Shown here piece after piece: positions 8,944 to 64,000 of a stretch of DNA of 64,000 nucleotides. This stretch comes from Undibacterium paludis. GTDB taxonomy: Bacteria > Pseudomonadota > Gammaproteobacteria > Burkholderiales > Burkholderiaceae_D. A program made the position numbers and the translations under genes. How positions within the stretch are numbered: the stretch's first letter is position 1; every line of letters begins with the position of its first letter. Location: assembly GCF_022568815.1 (NCBI RefSeq), contig NZ_JAKZHX010000009.1, forward strand, positions 248,001 through 312,000, in the 5' to 3' direction. Below the pieces are notes generated by a model. It ran no database searches. It was not told the DNA's origin and was given only the letters and a program-made list of their open reading frames with translations.

Positions 8944-8997
8944 GAGAGCCAGGCTCCAGAAAATGAATAGAGGCGATGCGCATCCCGCACATCTTTA

Positions 8998-9190
8998 CCC
9001 CCTCTGTTCTGGACCTGAGAGATTCACGTGACGCGCCACAAGGCGACGTCCGCTTGCTCCTTCGGTGTGCCGGTCAAGCAGAACCGGCAACTCTTCAGAG
9101 TTCACTTGCGATACCGGTCCTTTTGCCTGAGAGTTTCCGGGGCGGTTGCTCCTTCGGCGCTGTCTGATACCGCACGACAGTCTCTCCCGA
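8998..9190 (-). ncRNA. Tandem glycine riboswitch (two aptamers)
   Basis: On the minus strand two glycine aptamers lie head to tail. Aptamer 1 (about 9190-9110) has CGGGAGAGAC, then GCCGAAGGAGCAA, then AAACTCTCAGGCAAAAGGACCG. Aptamer 2 (about 9106-8998) has AACTCTGAAGAG, ACCGAAGGAGCAAGCGG and AATCTCTCAGGTCCAGAACAG. These are the conserved blocks of the gcvT-type glycine riboswitch (Rfam Glycine family). Tandem glycine aptamers usually switch on glycine-cleavage or export genes. Here the first downstream frame is a small membrane protein, followed by secreted proteins. No clear intrinsic terminator lies between aptamer 2 and the ATG at 8943, so control is probably at translation initiation. Confidence 0.93.
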
Positions 9191-9483
9191 TACCACACAC
9201 CATATCAACACGATATGAGAGTTTCTATAAAATTTGATAATGCAGTCTAGGTCGAAGATTGGGAAAATGCCAATTATTTTTTTAAGTATTTTAATTCCAG
9301 CTTTAAATGAAGCCGTGTCCATGGCTGAGGTACAATTTTCCTAAGCGACATGTCAGTGGCTTCTGGAGTCCCCTCTGGTGCGCAGGCCATTCCAATGACT
9401 ATTGAGAAAACTGATATGGAAGAAAAGAACAAAGATGGCGAAGCAGGCTGCCCACTCCATTTTTTAAACACCTATGTTTAAAA
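9191..9483. other. Intergenic stretch with no recognisable gene
   Basis: About 290 bases between the riboswitch 5' end and the tRNA-operon terminator. Only short frames exist: one of 65 codons on the minus strand (9274-9471) has no RBS and unremarkable composition. The promoter of the riboswitch transcript should lie near 9190-9240 (AT-rich), but I cannot place it with confidence. Confidence 0.5.
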
Positions 9484-9541: not shown

Positions 9542-9617
9542 TGGCGTCCCCAGGGGGATTCGAACCCCCGTACTCACCGTGAAAGGGTGATGTCCTAGGC
9601 CTCTAGACGATGGGGAC
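9542..9617 (-). tRNA. tRNA-Glu: tRNA-Glu (TTC)
   Basis: 76 nt with an encoded CCA end. The acceptor GTCCCCA pairs with TGGGGAC, the anticodon loop CTTTCAC gives anticodon TTC, and the T-arm GGGGGTTCGAATCCCCC is intact. It is identical to the copy at 9685-9760, and is the last gene in the gltX-tRNA-Ala-tRNA-Glu-tRNA-Glu row. Confidence 0.97.
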
Positions 9618-9684
9618 ATATTCTGTCCGTGTTACCGACCTAAATTATTTACCTGCTGCCCACAATCAATACAATATAATTGAT

Positions 9685-9760
9685 TGGCGTCCCCAGGGGG
9701 ATTCGAACCCCCGTACTCACCGTGAAAGGGTGATGTCCTAGGCCTCTAGACGATGGGGAC
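9685..9760 (-). tRNA. tRNA-Glu: tRNA-Glu (TTC), second identical copy
   Basis: 76 nt including CCA, identical base for base to the copy 67 bp downstream on the same strand. The anticodon is TTC. It lies between tRNA-Ala and the other tRNA-Glu, a local tandem duplication. Confidence 0.97.
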
Positions 9761-9794
9761 AACAAGTATTGTTCTGCTCTGCCACTTTTTTATT

Positions 9795-9870
<76 letters not shown>

Positions 9871-12514: not shown

Positions 12515-12591
12515 CGGAGTGTAGCGCAGCCCGGTAGCGCATCTGCTTTGGGAGCAGAGGGTCCAAGGTTCGAATCCTTGTACTCCGACCA
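12515..12591 (+). tRNA. tRNA-Pro: tRNA-Pro (TGG)
   Basis: 77 nt with encoded CCA. The acceptor CGGAGTG pairs with its TACTCCG partner, the anticodon loop TTTGGGA gives TGG, and the T-arm is CAAGGTTCGAATCCTTG. It is identical to the copy at 12687-12763. A hairpin terminator follows at once (12599-12627). Confidence 0.97.
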
Positions 12592-12598
12592 GATTCCA

Positions 12599-12627
12599 GG
12601 GATCGTCAGTGACGATCCCTTTTATTT
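12599..12627 (+). terminator. Terminator after first tRNA-Pro
   Basis: A perfect 9-bp stem GGGATCGTC/GACGATCCC with a 3-base loop, followed by TTTTATTT. It lies 7 bases beyond the tRNA 3' end. Confidence 0.88.
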
Positions 12628-12686
12628 CGGTCATTTTGGATTAAACTGAAATGGACTAAACCGAAATAAATGCAAGACCAGTTTTT

Positions 12687-12763
12687 CGGAGTGTAGCGCA
12701 GCCCGGTAGCGCATCTGCTTTGGGAGCAGAGGGTCCAAGGTTCGAATCCTTGTACTCCGACCA
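12687..12763 (+). tRNA. tRNA-Pro: tRNA-Pro (TGG), second identical copy
   Basis: 77 nt with CCA, identical to the tRNA at 12515-12591. It has its own terminator downstream, with a hairpin sequence different from the first, so the two copies seem to be independent transcription units rather than one operon. Confidence 0.97.
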
Positions 12764-24928: not shown

Positions 24929-25408
24929 ATGAATATTGTCGTTCGCGAAGCAAGGATTGAAGATGCGCAATTGATTGCGCATCTTACGCGTAGTTGCTGG
25001 GCCAATAAAGTCGCATCCACCTCCAGCGGTCATGTAGAAAGCAGTGAGCGTGTCTGCAATGATCTCATGCTGGGCGGAGGTTTCGTCTTGTTACTCGACG
25101 ATGAACCCGTAGGTTCAGTACGCTGGCTGCCGCTTGAAGCGGCCGGCAATTGCTGGGAAATGCTGCGCATGGGCGTATTGCCCGCCTTTCGCGGTACGGC
25201 TCTGTCCCAGCATTTGCTGGAAGCTGTCATCCATGCAGCCCAGACAGCAGGCATAGAAGAACTGCGGCTCGGGGTGCGTAGCGATCAACCACGCTTGCTG
25301 GACTTGTATGCCGCCTTTGAGTTTGCACTGGCGCCTGAACTGGAATACTCTCAAGCCAATCCAGACGAACCCGCACCCCATGTTATGCGGCGCTTTCTCA
25401 AAAACTAG
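24929..25408 (+). CDS. GNAT family N-acetyltransferase
   Basis: 159 aa single-domain GNAT. The acetyl-CoA-binding motif A is LRMGVLPAFRGTALSQHLLEAV (residues ~73-94), preceded by the beta strand PVGSVRWLPLE and followed by IEELRLGVRSDQPRLLDLYAAFEF, the usual motif B. It starts 21 bp after metG and might be co-transcribed. The acceptor substrate (amine, peptide or antibiotic) cannot be read from sequence. An imperfect inverted repeat (25428-25471) and the 175-bp repeat element lie downstream. Confidence 0.87.
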   Translation: MNIVVREARIEDAQLIAHLTRSCWANKVASTSSGHVESSERVCNDLMLGGGFVLLLDDEPVGSVRWLPLEAAGNCWEMLRMGVLPAFRGTALSQHLLEAVIHAAQTAGIEELRLGVRSDQPRLLDLYAAFEFALAPELEYSQANPDEPAPHVMRRFLKN

Positions 25409-25504: not shown

Positions 25505-25679
25505 TAGTGGACTGTAACAGTAAAAGCGGAAGTGAAAGACATGTGCCCGGCGAATCAGGACAAGGCAAGGTGTTGACAAATAAGCACAGCGATAGCGGGG
25601 CTATCGCGCGTATTTGCAACGCCGCCCTGGTCGCCGCGCACATGGCAGGCACTTCGCTTTTCACTGTTACAGTCCACTA
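25505..25679. repeat. 175-bp palindromic MITE-like repeat, copy 1
   Basis: Starts TAGTGGACTGTAACAGTAAA and ends with its imperfect reverse complement ...TTTTCACTGTTACAGTCCACTA. Inner parts pair too: CATGTGCCCGGCGA with TCGCCGCGCACATG, GTTGACAAATA with TATTTGCAAC, and the apex GCGATAGC-GGG-GCTATCGC. The whole element can therefore fold into one long hairpin. A second copy of exactly the same length lies at 63215-63389 (11 differences by my count). It sits between a GNAT gene and pepP. A TA at each end would fit TA target duplication as in IS630/Tc1-type elements; no transposase is present in the window. Confidence 0.88.
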
Positions 25680-25752: not shown

Positions 25753-27576
25753 ATGAACAGCCCAATAAGCCCGTCTGCCGTCACTTCCCCTATACCTGCA
25801 CGCCTGGTGCAATTGCGTACCGCCATGCGAGCCCAGGGTCTGGATGCCTACATCATCCCTTCCGCCGATCCGCATTTGTCAGAATACCTGCCTGAACGCT
25901 GGCAGGGGCGCAGCTATTTCTCCGGTTTTACGGGTTCTGTTGGCACGCTGGTCGTGACGGCAGATTTTGCCGGTTTGTGGGTGGATAGCCGTTACTGGAG
26001 TTCTGCCGAAGCAGAATTGGCGCCAACCGGCATACAGATGATGAAAATCGCCTCGGCGGCAGCCACCCTGCATATAGACTGGCTGGCAAACAACCTGGCC
26101 GCGGGCCAGATTGTGGGTGTAGACGGCATGGTGCTGGGCCTGGCAACAGCCAGGGCATTGGAGCAAGCCTTGAGCAGTAAACAGATCAGTCTTAATACAT
26201 CGCATGACCTGCTACAGGAAGTCTGGGATGGTCGCCCAACCCTGCCGCTATCACCTATATATGAACATCTGCCGCCCTTCGCCACCGTTGCCCGCAAAGA
26301 CAAACTGGCCATGATCAGGGAAGAAATGCGTAGCAAAAATGCCGACTGGCACTTTGTATCGACGGTGGATGACCTGGCATGGATTTTCAATCTGCGCGGT
26401 TCAGACGTCAGCTATAACCCGGTATTTGTCGGCCACGCCCTGATCAGCCAGCACAGTGCAACCTTATATGTGTCAAAAAGCAAGGTAACGGCAGAACTCG
26501 CCGCCACACTGGCTGCTGACGGCATCAAACTGGGCGACTATACCGAAGCCACCACCGCCCTGGCAGCGCTACCTGCAAACAGCGCGATATTGGTAGACCC
26601 GCGCAGAATCACCTATGGCTTCAGGCAAGCCATCCCGGCGTCGGTACGTGTCGTTGAAGCTATCAATCCTTCTGTTTTTGCCAAATCACGCAAGACCCCA
26701 GAAGAAGCACAATTCGTTCGCGAAGCCATGGAACAAGATGGCGCAGCACTGTGTGAATTCTTCAGCTGGCTTGAATCAGCACTAGGCAAAGAAGAAATCA
26801 CTGAGCTCACCATTGATGAAAAAATCTGTGCAGCCCGCGCCCGCCAGCCACATTTTGTGTCACCCAGCTTTAATACCATTGCCGGCTTCAATGCAAACGG
26901 CGCCATGCCACATTACCGCGCCACCAAAGAATCCCATGCGACGATAGCCGGTGATGGCCTGTTACTGATCGATTCTGGCGGCCAGTACCTGAACGGCACC
27001 ACCGACATCACGCGCGTAGTGCCGGTAGGCCAGGTGTCAGAAGCGCAAAAACGGGACTTTACTCTGGTCCTGAAAGGCGTCATCAATCTGTCGCAAATGC
27101 GCTTCCCGCGCGGCACATTGTCACCCATGCTCGATACCGTAGCACGTGCACCTATCTGGGCGGAGGGCATCAACTTTGGACATGGCACCGGCCACGGTGT
27201 AGGTTACTTCCTGAATGTACATGAAGGCCCGCAAAACATTTCCGGTGCAATCGCTGAAGCGCATATGGCAATGGAAGTCGGCATGATCACATCCAATGAA
27301 CCTGGTATTTATCGCCCGGGAAAATGGGGTGTCAGGATAGAAAACCTGTTGCTTAATGTAGCAGCCATGCAAACCGAATTTGGCGAATACCTGGCGTTTG
27401 AAACACTGACACTGTGCCCCATAGACACACGCTGCATCATCACCAGCCTGTTGCGCGAAGATGAAGTCAAATGGCTCAATGACTACCATGCAACGGTCTT
27501 GCAACGTCTGTCCGGCCGCGTATCAGGTTCGGCGCTGGAGTGGCTGAAAGAAAGAACCCAAGCGATTGTCCGCTAG
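25753..27576 (+). CDS. pepP: Xaa-Pro aminopeptidase (M24B, aminopeptidase P)
   Basis: 607 aa. Two creatinase-like N-terminal domains (about residues 10-300, beginning LRTAMRAQGLDAYIIPSADPH with SPGF-type FSGFTGSVGTLVV) precede the pita-bread catalytic domain. The metal ligands are visible: Asp residues in LLIDSGGQYLNGTTDITR, His in FGHGTGHGVGYF, Glu in TSNEPGIYRPGKWG and Glu in GVRIENL. The length corresponds to the long three-domain form seen in eukaryotes and many proteobacteria rather than the 440-aa E. coli PepP. It removes the N-terminal residue before proline in the cytoplasm. It ends at a bidirectional terminator facing phoR. Confidence 0.94.
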   Translation: MNSPISPSAVTSPIPARLVQLRTAMRAQGLDAYIIPSADPHLSEYLPERWQGRSYFSGFTGSVGTLVVTADFAGLWVDSRYWSSAEAELAPTGIQMMKIASAAATLHIDWLANNLAAGQIVGVDGMVLGLATARALEQALSSKQISLNTSHDLLQEVWDGRPTLPLSPIYEHLPPFATVARKDKLAMIREEMRSKNADWHFVSTVDDLAWIFNLRGSDVSYNPVFVGHALISQHSATLYVSKSKVTAELAATLAADGIKLGDYTEATTALAALPANSAILVDPRRITYGFRQAIPASVRVVEAINPSVFAKSRKTPEEAQFVREAMEQDGAALCEFFSWLESALGKEEITELTIDEKICAARARQPHFVSPSFNTIAGFNANGAMPHYRATKESHATIAGDGLLLIDSGGQYLNGTTDITRVVPVGQVSEAQKRDFTLVLKGVINLSQMRFPRGTLSPMLDTVARAPIWAEGINFGHGTGHGVGYFLNVHEGPQNISGAIAEAHMAMEVGMITSNEPGIYRPGKWGVRIENLLLNVAAMQTEFGEYLAFETLTLCPIDTRCIITSLLREDEVKWLNDYHATVLQRLSGRVSGSALEWLKERTQAIVR

Positions 27577-63214: not shown

Positions 63215-63389
63215 TAGTGGACTGTCACAGTGAAAGCGGAAGTGAAAGACATGTGCCCGGTGAATCAGGGCAAGGCAAGGTTTTGACAAATAAACACAGC
63301 GATAGCGGGGCTATCGCGCGTATTTGCAACGCCGCCATGATCGTCGAGCACATGGCAGGCACTTCGCTTTTCACTGTGACAGTCCACTA
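63215..63389. repeat. 175-bp palindromic MITE-like repeat, copy 2
   Basis: Starts TAGTGGACTGTCACAGTGAA and ends TTTTCACTGTGACAGTCCACTA, same length and orientation as copy 1 at 25505-25679, 11 differences by my count. One difference is compensated: TGTAACAG with CTGTTACA in copy 1 is TGTCACAG with CTGTGACA here. The last three bases CTA (63387-63389) are, on the minus strand, the TAG stop codon of the DHH-family gene. It thus sits directly on that gene's 3' end. Confidence 0.88.
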
Positions 63390-64000
63390 GCCATCCAGAT
63401 TAATGCGGGCAATCAGTGCAGCCAGGGTTTCCGCCGCCTTTTCATTCGGCACCTGGCAGGTGCCGGCATTTTCGTGACCGCCACCACCATACTCCAGCAT
63501 CAACGGGCCGATATTGGTCTTTGATGTACGGTTCAGGATAGACTTGCCGGTCGCAAAAACCGTATTCTGATTCTTCAGCCCCCACAAAACGTGGATGGAA
63601 ATATTAGTCTCAGGGAACAAGGCATAGATCAAAAAACGGTTACCGGCAAAAATCGTTGCCTCATCACGTAAATCAAGCACGACCAGATTGTCATGCAAGG
63701 TGGCACAACGCCGGATTTGCTCCCTGCATTTTTCTTCATGCTCAAAATACAGGTCAACCCGCTCTTTGACGTCAGGATTTTGCATGATTTCGCTGATAGA
63801 CTGGGTTTTGCACAAATCGATCAGTTCCATCATCAATGCGTAATTTGATATCCTGAATTCGCGGAACCGCCCCAGACCGGTACGCGCATCCATCAAAAAA
63901 TTCAGCAAATCCCATTCTTTCGGATTCAGCACCTCTTCACGATTAAATTGTGCCGAGTCCCCCTTATCGACAGCCGCCATCATACCGTCCCATGAAGCCG
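63387..64000 (-). CDS. DHH-family phosphoesterase (exopolyphosphatase-like), partial
   Basis: C-terminal ~204 codons of a gene whose start is beyond 64000. The first window codons read ASWDGMMAAVDKGDSAQF, which fits the region after the DHH motifs. The C-terminal DHHA1 domain is present (MLEYGGGGHENAGTCQVPNEKA, with the GGGH substrate-binding motif). Relatives in this order are usually annotated as exopolyphosphatase; true activity may be on nucleotide or oligonucleotide phosphates (NrnA-like). The stop codon TAG is made by the end of the repeat element, so the C-terminus may be changed from the ancestral one. Confidence 0.85.
   Translation of the reverse strand, partial: ASWDGMMAAVDKGDSAQFNREEVLNPKEWDLLNFLMDARTGLGRFREFRISNYALMMELIDLCKTQSISEIMQNPDVKERVDLYFEHEEKCREQIRRCATLHDNLVVLDLRDEATIFAGNRFLIYALFPETNISIHVLWGLKNQNTVFATGKSILNRTSKTNIGPLMLEYGGGGHENAGTCQVPNEKAAETLAALIARINLDG

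Follow-up and report, generated by a model that had tools for sequence, protein, structure and literature searches.

The window, by which we mean the whole 64,000-nucleotide stretch of the Undibacterium paludis genome that was analysed, carries a 175-bp palindrome, in all probability a MITE, in the intergenic region between two + strand genes, and a copy of the same length lies further downstream. The features of both neighbourhoods are given below.

24929..25408, + strand: GNAT acetyltransferase (PF00583), the upstream neighbour, 96 bp before copy 1
25505..25679: MITE copy 1, 175 bp with both flanking TAs counted in, with 31 near-full places in its own genome and a fold z of -12.1 as DNA
25505..25506: left TA target duplication, supported by filled and empty alleles at six other insertions and by the flanking bases of 87 sites
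25507..25534, + strand: left terminal inverted repeat, whose likeness to the termini of the partner IS630-family IS extends over ~30 bp
25511..25521: 11-bp ACTGTAACAGT, left member of a near-identical direct repeat, read from the sequence, with a filled/scar orthologous locus elsewhere
25540..25552, + strand: inner box, left arm, lineage-variable and largely paired (helix 2 and the start of helix 3), compared with other genera
25589..25607: apical hairpin GCGATAGC-GGG-GCTATCGC (helix 5), with 92.3% of cells paired across 85 copies
25632..25644, - strand: inner box, right arm, from the helix alignment of 85 copies and other genera
25650..25677, - strand: right terminal inverted repeat, resembling the ends of the partner IS630-family IS
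25663..25673: 11-bp ACTGTTACAGT, right member of the same direct repeat, read from the sequence, with a filled/scar orthologous locus elsewhere
25678..25679: right TA target duplication, on the same evidence as the left one
25753..27576, + strand: M24-family peptidase (PF00557), the downstream neighbour, starting 73 bp after copy 1
63215..63389: MITE copy 2, 175 bp, 94% identical to copy 1
63387..63983, - strand: ORF, from the ORF listing alone, with a TAG stop supplied by the terminus of copy 2

Elsewhere in the window, tandem glycine riboswitch aptamers (Rfam RF00504) lie on the - strand at 8994-9199, and tRNA genes at 9542-9870 and 12515-12763 include two identical copies of tRNA-Glu and a near-identical repeat pair of tRNA-Pro.

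The initial annotation described a palindrome that folds end to end, and its coordinates, its length, its terminal repeats and its apex were all borne out. Folded as DNA, 25505-25679 has a minimum free energy of -63.7 kcal/mol, which was equalled by 0 of 200 shuffles; as RNA, z was -12.7 for the + strand and -13.4 for the - strand. The second copy is indeed of equal length. The compensating change from A-T to C-G that had been reported between the two copies is also real, but it affects the pair 25516-25668, in the terminal repeat 12 bp from the outer end, and not the hairpin apex. Among 85 aligned copies, this pair is A-T in 65, C-G in 13 and G-C in 1, and is unpaired in 6.

The element is widely dispersed. 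In its own genome, 31 places span at least 160 of the 175 bases (from 65 matches, including reverse-strand self matches of the palindrome). Within the genus, 13 of 43 genomes (own included) gave matches, 8 of them with at least 14 each and 5 with one each, counts that likewise include the reverse-strand self matches. The plasmid records held no match to the MITE. Its 17-base end occurs without mismatch in 16 of 392 genomes and in 5 of 44 genera including its own, and related elements were detected in 7 of 11 chosen genomes when a 161-bp copy was used as query. The 92 loci that were fetched represent 78 independent sites, 11 sites being common to more than one locus, and the copies fall into length classes of 175, 163, 95 and about 90 bp. 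The family thus has features that define MITEs, being short, bounded by terminal inverted repeats and present in many dispersed copies. One insertion site is common to four species (L177, L188, L196 and L205, in G010, G015, G026 and G042), with 4-5 broken pairs per copy.

Viewed from the window, which holds only two copies, the palindrome might be an old sequence that was duplicated locally and never moved. However, the 31 near-full places are spread across many contigs of the own genome, and the comparison with related genomes that had been proposed as a check showed 8 of the 43 genus genomes (own included) to be rich in copies, so that this is not a two-copy duplication. Empty sites also exist: six relatives lack the element at the window locus, where the intergenic junction is too diverged for the empty site to be read at base level. 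A local duplication was therefore rejected, and we accord it next to no probability.

At other copies, insertion could be followed at base level. Six filled/empty pairs were found, comprising five insertions that differ between the genomes G021 and G022 and one copy of the own genome compared with G022. By eye, all six fit loss of the element plus one TA in length; the single TA is intact in four of the empty alleles and mutated in two. Most flanks of the insertions shared by G021 and G022 are 88-98% identical. Of 87 distinct sites, 58 have C, 23 T, 5 A and 1 G immediately 5' of the left TA, and 55 have G, 16 A, 12 T and 4 C immediately 3' of the right TA, whereas between the two TAs the element starts with G in 84 and ends with C in 82. 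Such variation outside the TA, next to a nearly invariant G and C inside it, favours a 2-bp duplication of TA over a 4-bp duplication of CTAG, and the latter was rejected. Insertion thus is accompanied by TA target duplication in a CTAG-like context. This answers, at the six pairs and the 87 sites, the suggestion that the TA at both ends reflects IS630/Tc1-type mobilisation, and, together with the dispersed copies and the empty sites, it upholds the reading as a MITE family. In the window, the TAG stop codon supplied by the end of copy 2 suits insertion at a CTAG stop codon of the - strand ORF. Members of the IS630 family (IS630, ISY100) duplicate TA, according to passages of PMC2170065, and a preference of IS630 for TA in CTAG is given in the title of Tenzen 1991, as cited there. 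TA duplication is therefore common to these elements and to the MITE, which differs in being far too short for a transposase gene.

The initial annotation had noted that no transposase was to be seen. This holds for the own genome, in which a search for PF13358 and a scan for paired MITE ends turned up no transposase, but not beyond it, as the search for an autonomous IS with the same ends led to a clade of IS630-family elements in other Burkholderiales. A Caballeronia plasmid carries a full-length relative (L235), and NF033545 (E 2e-74) and PF13358 (E 6e-25) both place its 350-residue protein in the IS630 family. Relatives of this transposase numbered 199 in public genomes, of which 80 were kept, and the ends were inspected at 30 of these 80 loci, chosen by us. 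Where the transposase shared 71% or more identity with its Caballeronia counterpart, TAGTGGACTGTAAC-type repeats were present at both ends in 22 of 22 inspected loci (three of them copies from one genome), and the first 17 bases of the MITE were matched at 13 or more positions near both gene ends. The distance between these like ends is 1.10-1.11 kb in 21 loci and 1.03 kb in one. In the eight inspected loci at 64-68% transposase identity, by comparison, 12 or fewer of the 17 end positions match.

The likeness between MITE and IS extends over ~30 bp. Comparing 24 MITE copies with five IS sequences, of which three were whole and two partial, gave 272 BLAST rows, and 269 of these fell inside the outer 40 bp; the other three were one 49-bp end match and two weak matches at E 0.02. 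The MITE therefore also resembles, in its ends, an autonomous element whose transposase can be assigned to a family, IS630. Partner transposase and MITE were found together in one genome, that of Oxalobacteraceae bacterium AB_14 (G392), which has eight intact transposase genes and two MITEs. By eye, a Variovorax IS end (L268) resembles the ends of these MITEs more than AB_14's own IS ends do. In the genome G107, the 17-base end lies ~300 bp from four contig ends, backed by pieces of IS630-like transposase that are 69-84% identical to the Caballeronia protein; this carrier of IS ends has no MITE match.

A search of the 43 genus genomes for the partner transposase gave matches in three: G003 has a fragment of 41 residues (56% identity), and G021 and G026 have distant proteins (27-29%). 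The 8 MITE-rich genomes thus have no close partner transposase, although insertions differ between G021 and G022. IS630 transposases with PF13358 in G021, G026 and G042 were rejected as partners, their ends matching at 13 or fewer of 18 bases in the 7 loci scanned. In the own genome, 40 stretches (L061-L100) were scanned for terminal repeats (four mismatches or fewer) that face each other 0.6-3.8 kb apart, and such pairs were seen only in L073, L074, L084, L087 and L090, where one member of the pair has 4 mismatches. Two lone terminal repeats also face each other in L061 (6239-11963), 5.7 kb apart and with one mismatch at each end. Nine large ORFs inside the repeat pairs of L061, L074, L084 and L087 gave no Pfam transposase domain and are ordinary genes; an autonomous element in the own genome was rejected, as none of these four pairs encloses a transposase. 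Wide pairs in 7 relatives, built from matches with no more than one mismatch, were discarded as well, for example 240914-242961 in G021, which by eye is two adjacent MITEs.

Taken together, we conclude that the palindrome is very probably a MITE that cannot move by itself and depends on an IS630-family (Tc1/mariner-like) transposase supplied in trans. Such a transposase would bind both MITE ends, cut the element out and paste it into a new TA. As no such transposase turned up in the host genome, its copies look stranded, and the partner probably was lost or only visited.

The initial annotation further proposed that the structure is maintained because it acts as RNA or DNA. Covariation was examined in an alignment of 85 copies, from which we left out truncated or shortened copies (L012, L016, L022, L030, L073, L083, L091, L095, L097, L210 and L211), repeats or near-repeats (L115, L117, L122, L123, L126, L127 and L129), the second element in L184, unfetched genus copies and all copies from other genera. 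Double-sided changes were present in 29 of 72 pairs, against 20.8 +/- 2.2 in shuffles, in counts that are favoured by the use of the window copy's own fold as reference structure and that come from related, non-independent copies. In terms of cells, 212 had a double-sided change (shuffles, 87.6 +/- 9.5). The covariation score was 0.150, compared with 0.103 for shuffles and 0.038-0.052 for slid partners, and 25 replacements of one Watson-Crick pair by another each mapped to a single branch of the tree, compared with 0-3 for slid partners. The arm pairs thus covary beyond both controls, also inside the terminal repeats. A requirement that a single transposase accept both ends could account for the double changes within the outer 30 bp, but not for the paired inner box (25540-25552 with 25632-25644), in which 6 of the 7 pairs of the outer helix (helix 2) have double changes. 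In other genera the sequence of this box differs and its arms are still largely paired, as judged partly by eye in 25 chosen copies; L201 could not be split, and the 5' box of L001, L114, L175, L207, L346, L347 and L354, wrongly split by the motif search, was read by eye.

Across the 85 copies, the longer the terminal branch, the more pairs are broken (Spearman 0.68): copies on the 28 shortest branches have 0.43 broken pairs each on average, those on the 6 longest 9.0. This shows that the fold is kept in lineages still being copied and not in resident copies, and the proposal that its conservation signals an RNA or DNA role of its own is not supported. If the element were a structured RNA (for example for 3'-end processing or as a terminator) or a cruciform whose fold the host selects in place, the excess of double changes and the covariation score would be accounted for, but the decay of pairing in resident copies speaks against it. 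Departures from pairing favour G-U over A-C (124 vs 68 events), which would point to the + strand as RNA; however, with pairs as the unit the bias is only 25 vs 13 (p 0.07), and raw counts at unpaired sites lean the opposite way (111 vs 138). Similarly, the upstream gene is co-oriented with the element at 49 of the 78 independent sites (p 0.03), whereas the downstream gene is unbiased (34 same, 42 opposite, p 0.42), both counts resting on simple ORF calls with short spurious ORFs. A terminator-like hairpin is predicted at the apex on the - strand (one found, 0.4 expected). Against a structured RNA, Rfam gave no match over the element at the gathering score and none up to E 1, the automatic consensus fold of the full alignment by RNAalifold was poor (17 pairs at -8.1 kcal/mol), and insertions are missing from relatives at the sites tested. 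The G-U bias and the upstream gene orientation are thus weak hints of an RNA role, and a host function for the fold, unsupported in view of the decay in resident copies, seems improbable to us.

The double changes could also stem from mutation and not from selection, through hairpin template switching that copies one arm to the other or through conversion between copies. The 25 same-branch Watson-Crick changes would be expected from such events, as would an inner box that differs between genera yet stays largely paired. A further case in favour is an orthologous site at which the G021 copy (L114) has 175 bp and the G022 copy (L125) 163 bp, with one internal stretch replaced; either conversion from another copy or template switching may underlie this difference. 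Then again, stepwise changes may hide on long branches, and mutation of this kind leaves the TA duplication, the CTAG-like targets and the IS with like ends unexplained, so that it would add to transposition by an IS630-family transposase and not replace it. We regard it as a plausible source of the double changes, short of a probable one. Our own proposal, more tentative still, is that the whole palindrome is regenerated together, either through templated copying of one arm from the other or through a strand-specific need for the RNA during its active life, and decays once stranded. If this is true, such renewal and the 23-bp scars described below would make the MITE family a record of how palindromes are born, repaired and deleted in bacteria.

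Deletion was observed at one orthologous locus. G021 carries a full 175-bp element at 587518 (L118), and at the corresponding position of G022, 520095 (L329), there is a 23-bp palindrome. The flanks are 94.1% and 95.9% identical between the two genomes, and their overlap is exactly an 11-bp repeat, the ACTGTNACAGT-type repeat found in both ends of the element. These direct repeats are near-identical, agreeing at 10 of 11 positions in the window copy and at 9 of 11 in the present-day G021 copy. The 23-bp palindrome at G022 520095 is therefore a deletion scar. A long palindrome with such repeats in both ends would be prone to deletion between them, bridged by the hairpin and possibly brought about by slippage, with loss of the element and a 23-bp palindrome left behind. 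The 23-bp pattern of fused ends, allowing up to three mismatches, occurs at 19 places in 8 of the 43 genomes, exactly the 8 that are MITE-rich. As a reversed control pattern also matches (6 places in 4 genomes, likewise MITE-rich), single scars with three mismatches may be due to chance.

Two further sites resemble remnants. A 23-bp palindrome with like variant bases is present in L328 (G021) and L330 (G026), within 3 kb conserved at 87% identity, and may be an old scar or a separate site. In the own genome, L069 (contig C67, 226681) has a shortened end between flanks that enclose a full element in G021 and G022 (L135 and L137); perhaps this is an old shared insertion that decayed in the own genome, although the alignment of the element is poor. 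Nearly precise excision of Tn10 is a deletion between short direct repeats inside the inverted ends that leaves a small scar. The MITE scar would be the same kind of event, deduced here by genome comparison from a single orthologous locus and from the 23-bp palindromes of several genomes. Closely related genomes thus offer filled, empty and scar alleles of one palindrome family, which could be used to measure how bacteria lose long palindromes.

Correia elements likewise begin with TAGTGGA at their end, and their core probably differs from that of the present MITE. Most likely, the family described here is a Correia-like, IS630-mobilised MITE that is new within an already known kind, the palindromic MITEs of IS630 type. 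In the literature searched there was no description of the family, and a string search for TAGTGGACTGT gave no paper on bacteria by title. In the relevant sections of a 2007 review (PMC2229807), the Correia elements of Neisseria (CREE/NEMIS) are also MITEs shorter than 200 bp that are bounded by TA on either side and form a long stem-loop, and they too have discrete length classes, of about 107 and 155 bp. The present MITE differs in its host and in that an IS with like ends was found, and it bears on Correia-like elements, whose build is similar. Among the bacterial repeat families that these sections cover, RUP is the only one with an IS of matching ends, such likeness having been not looked for or not found in the others. 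RUP of Streptococcus pneumoniae and IS630-Spn1 are also a pair of MITE and IS630-family IS linked by common ends and TA targets; RUP has a 9-bp terminal repeat and 107 bp there, compared with ~30 bp of IS likeness and 175 bp here. In contrast to the RUP system, no close partner was found in the host genome of the present MITE, and it is one IS630-family clade of other Burkholderiales that matches the MITE over ~30 bp, with one public genome holding both IS and MITE.
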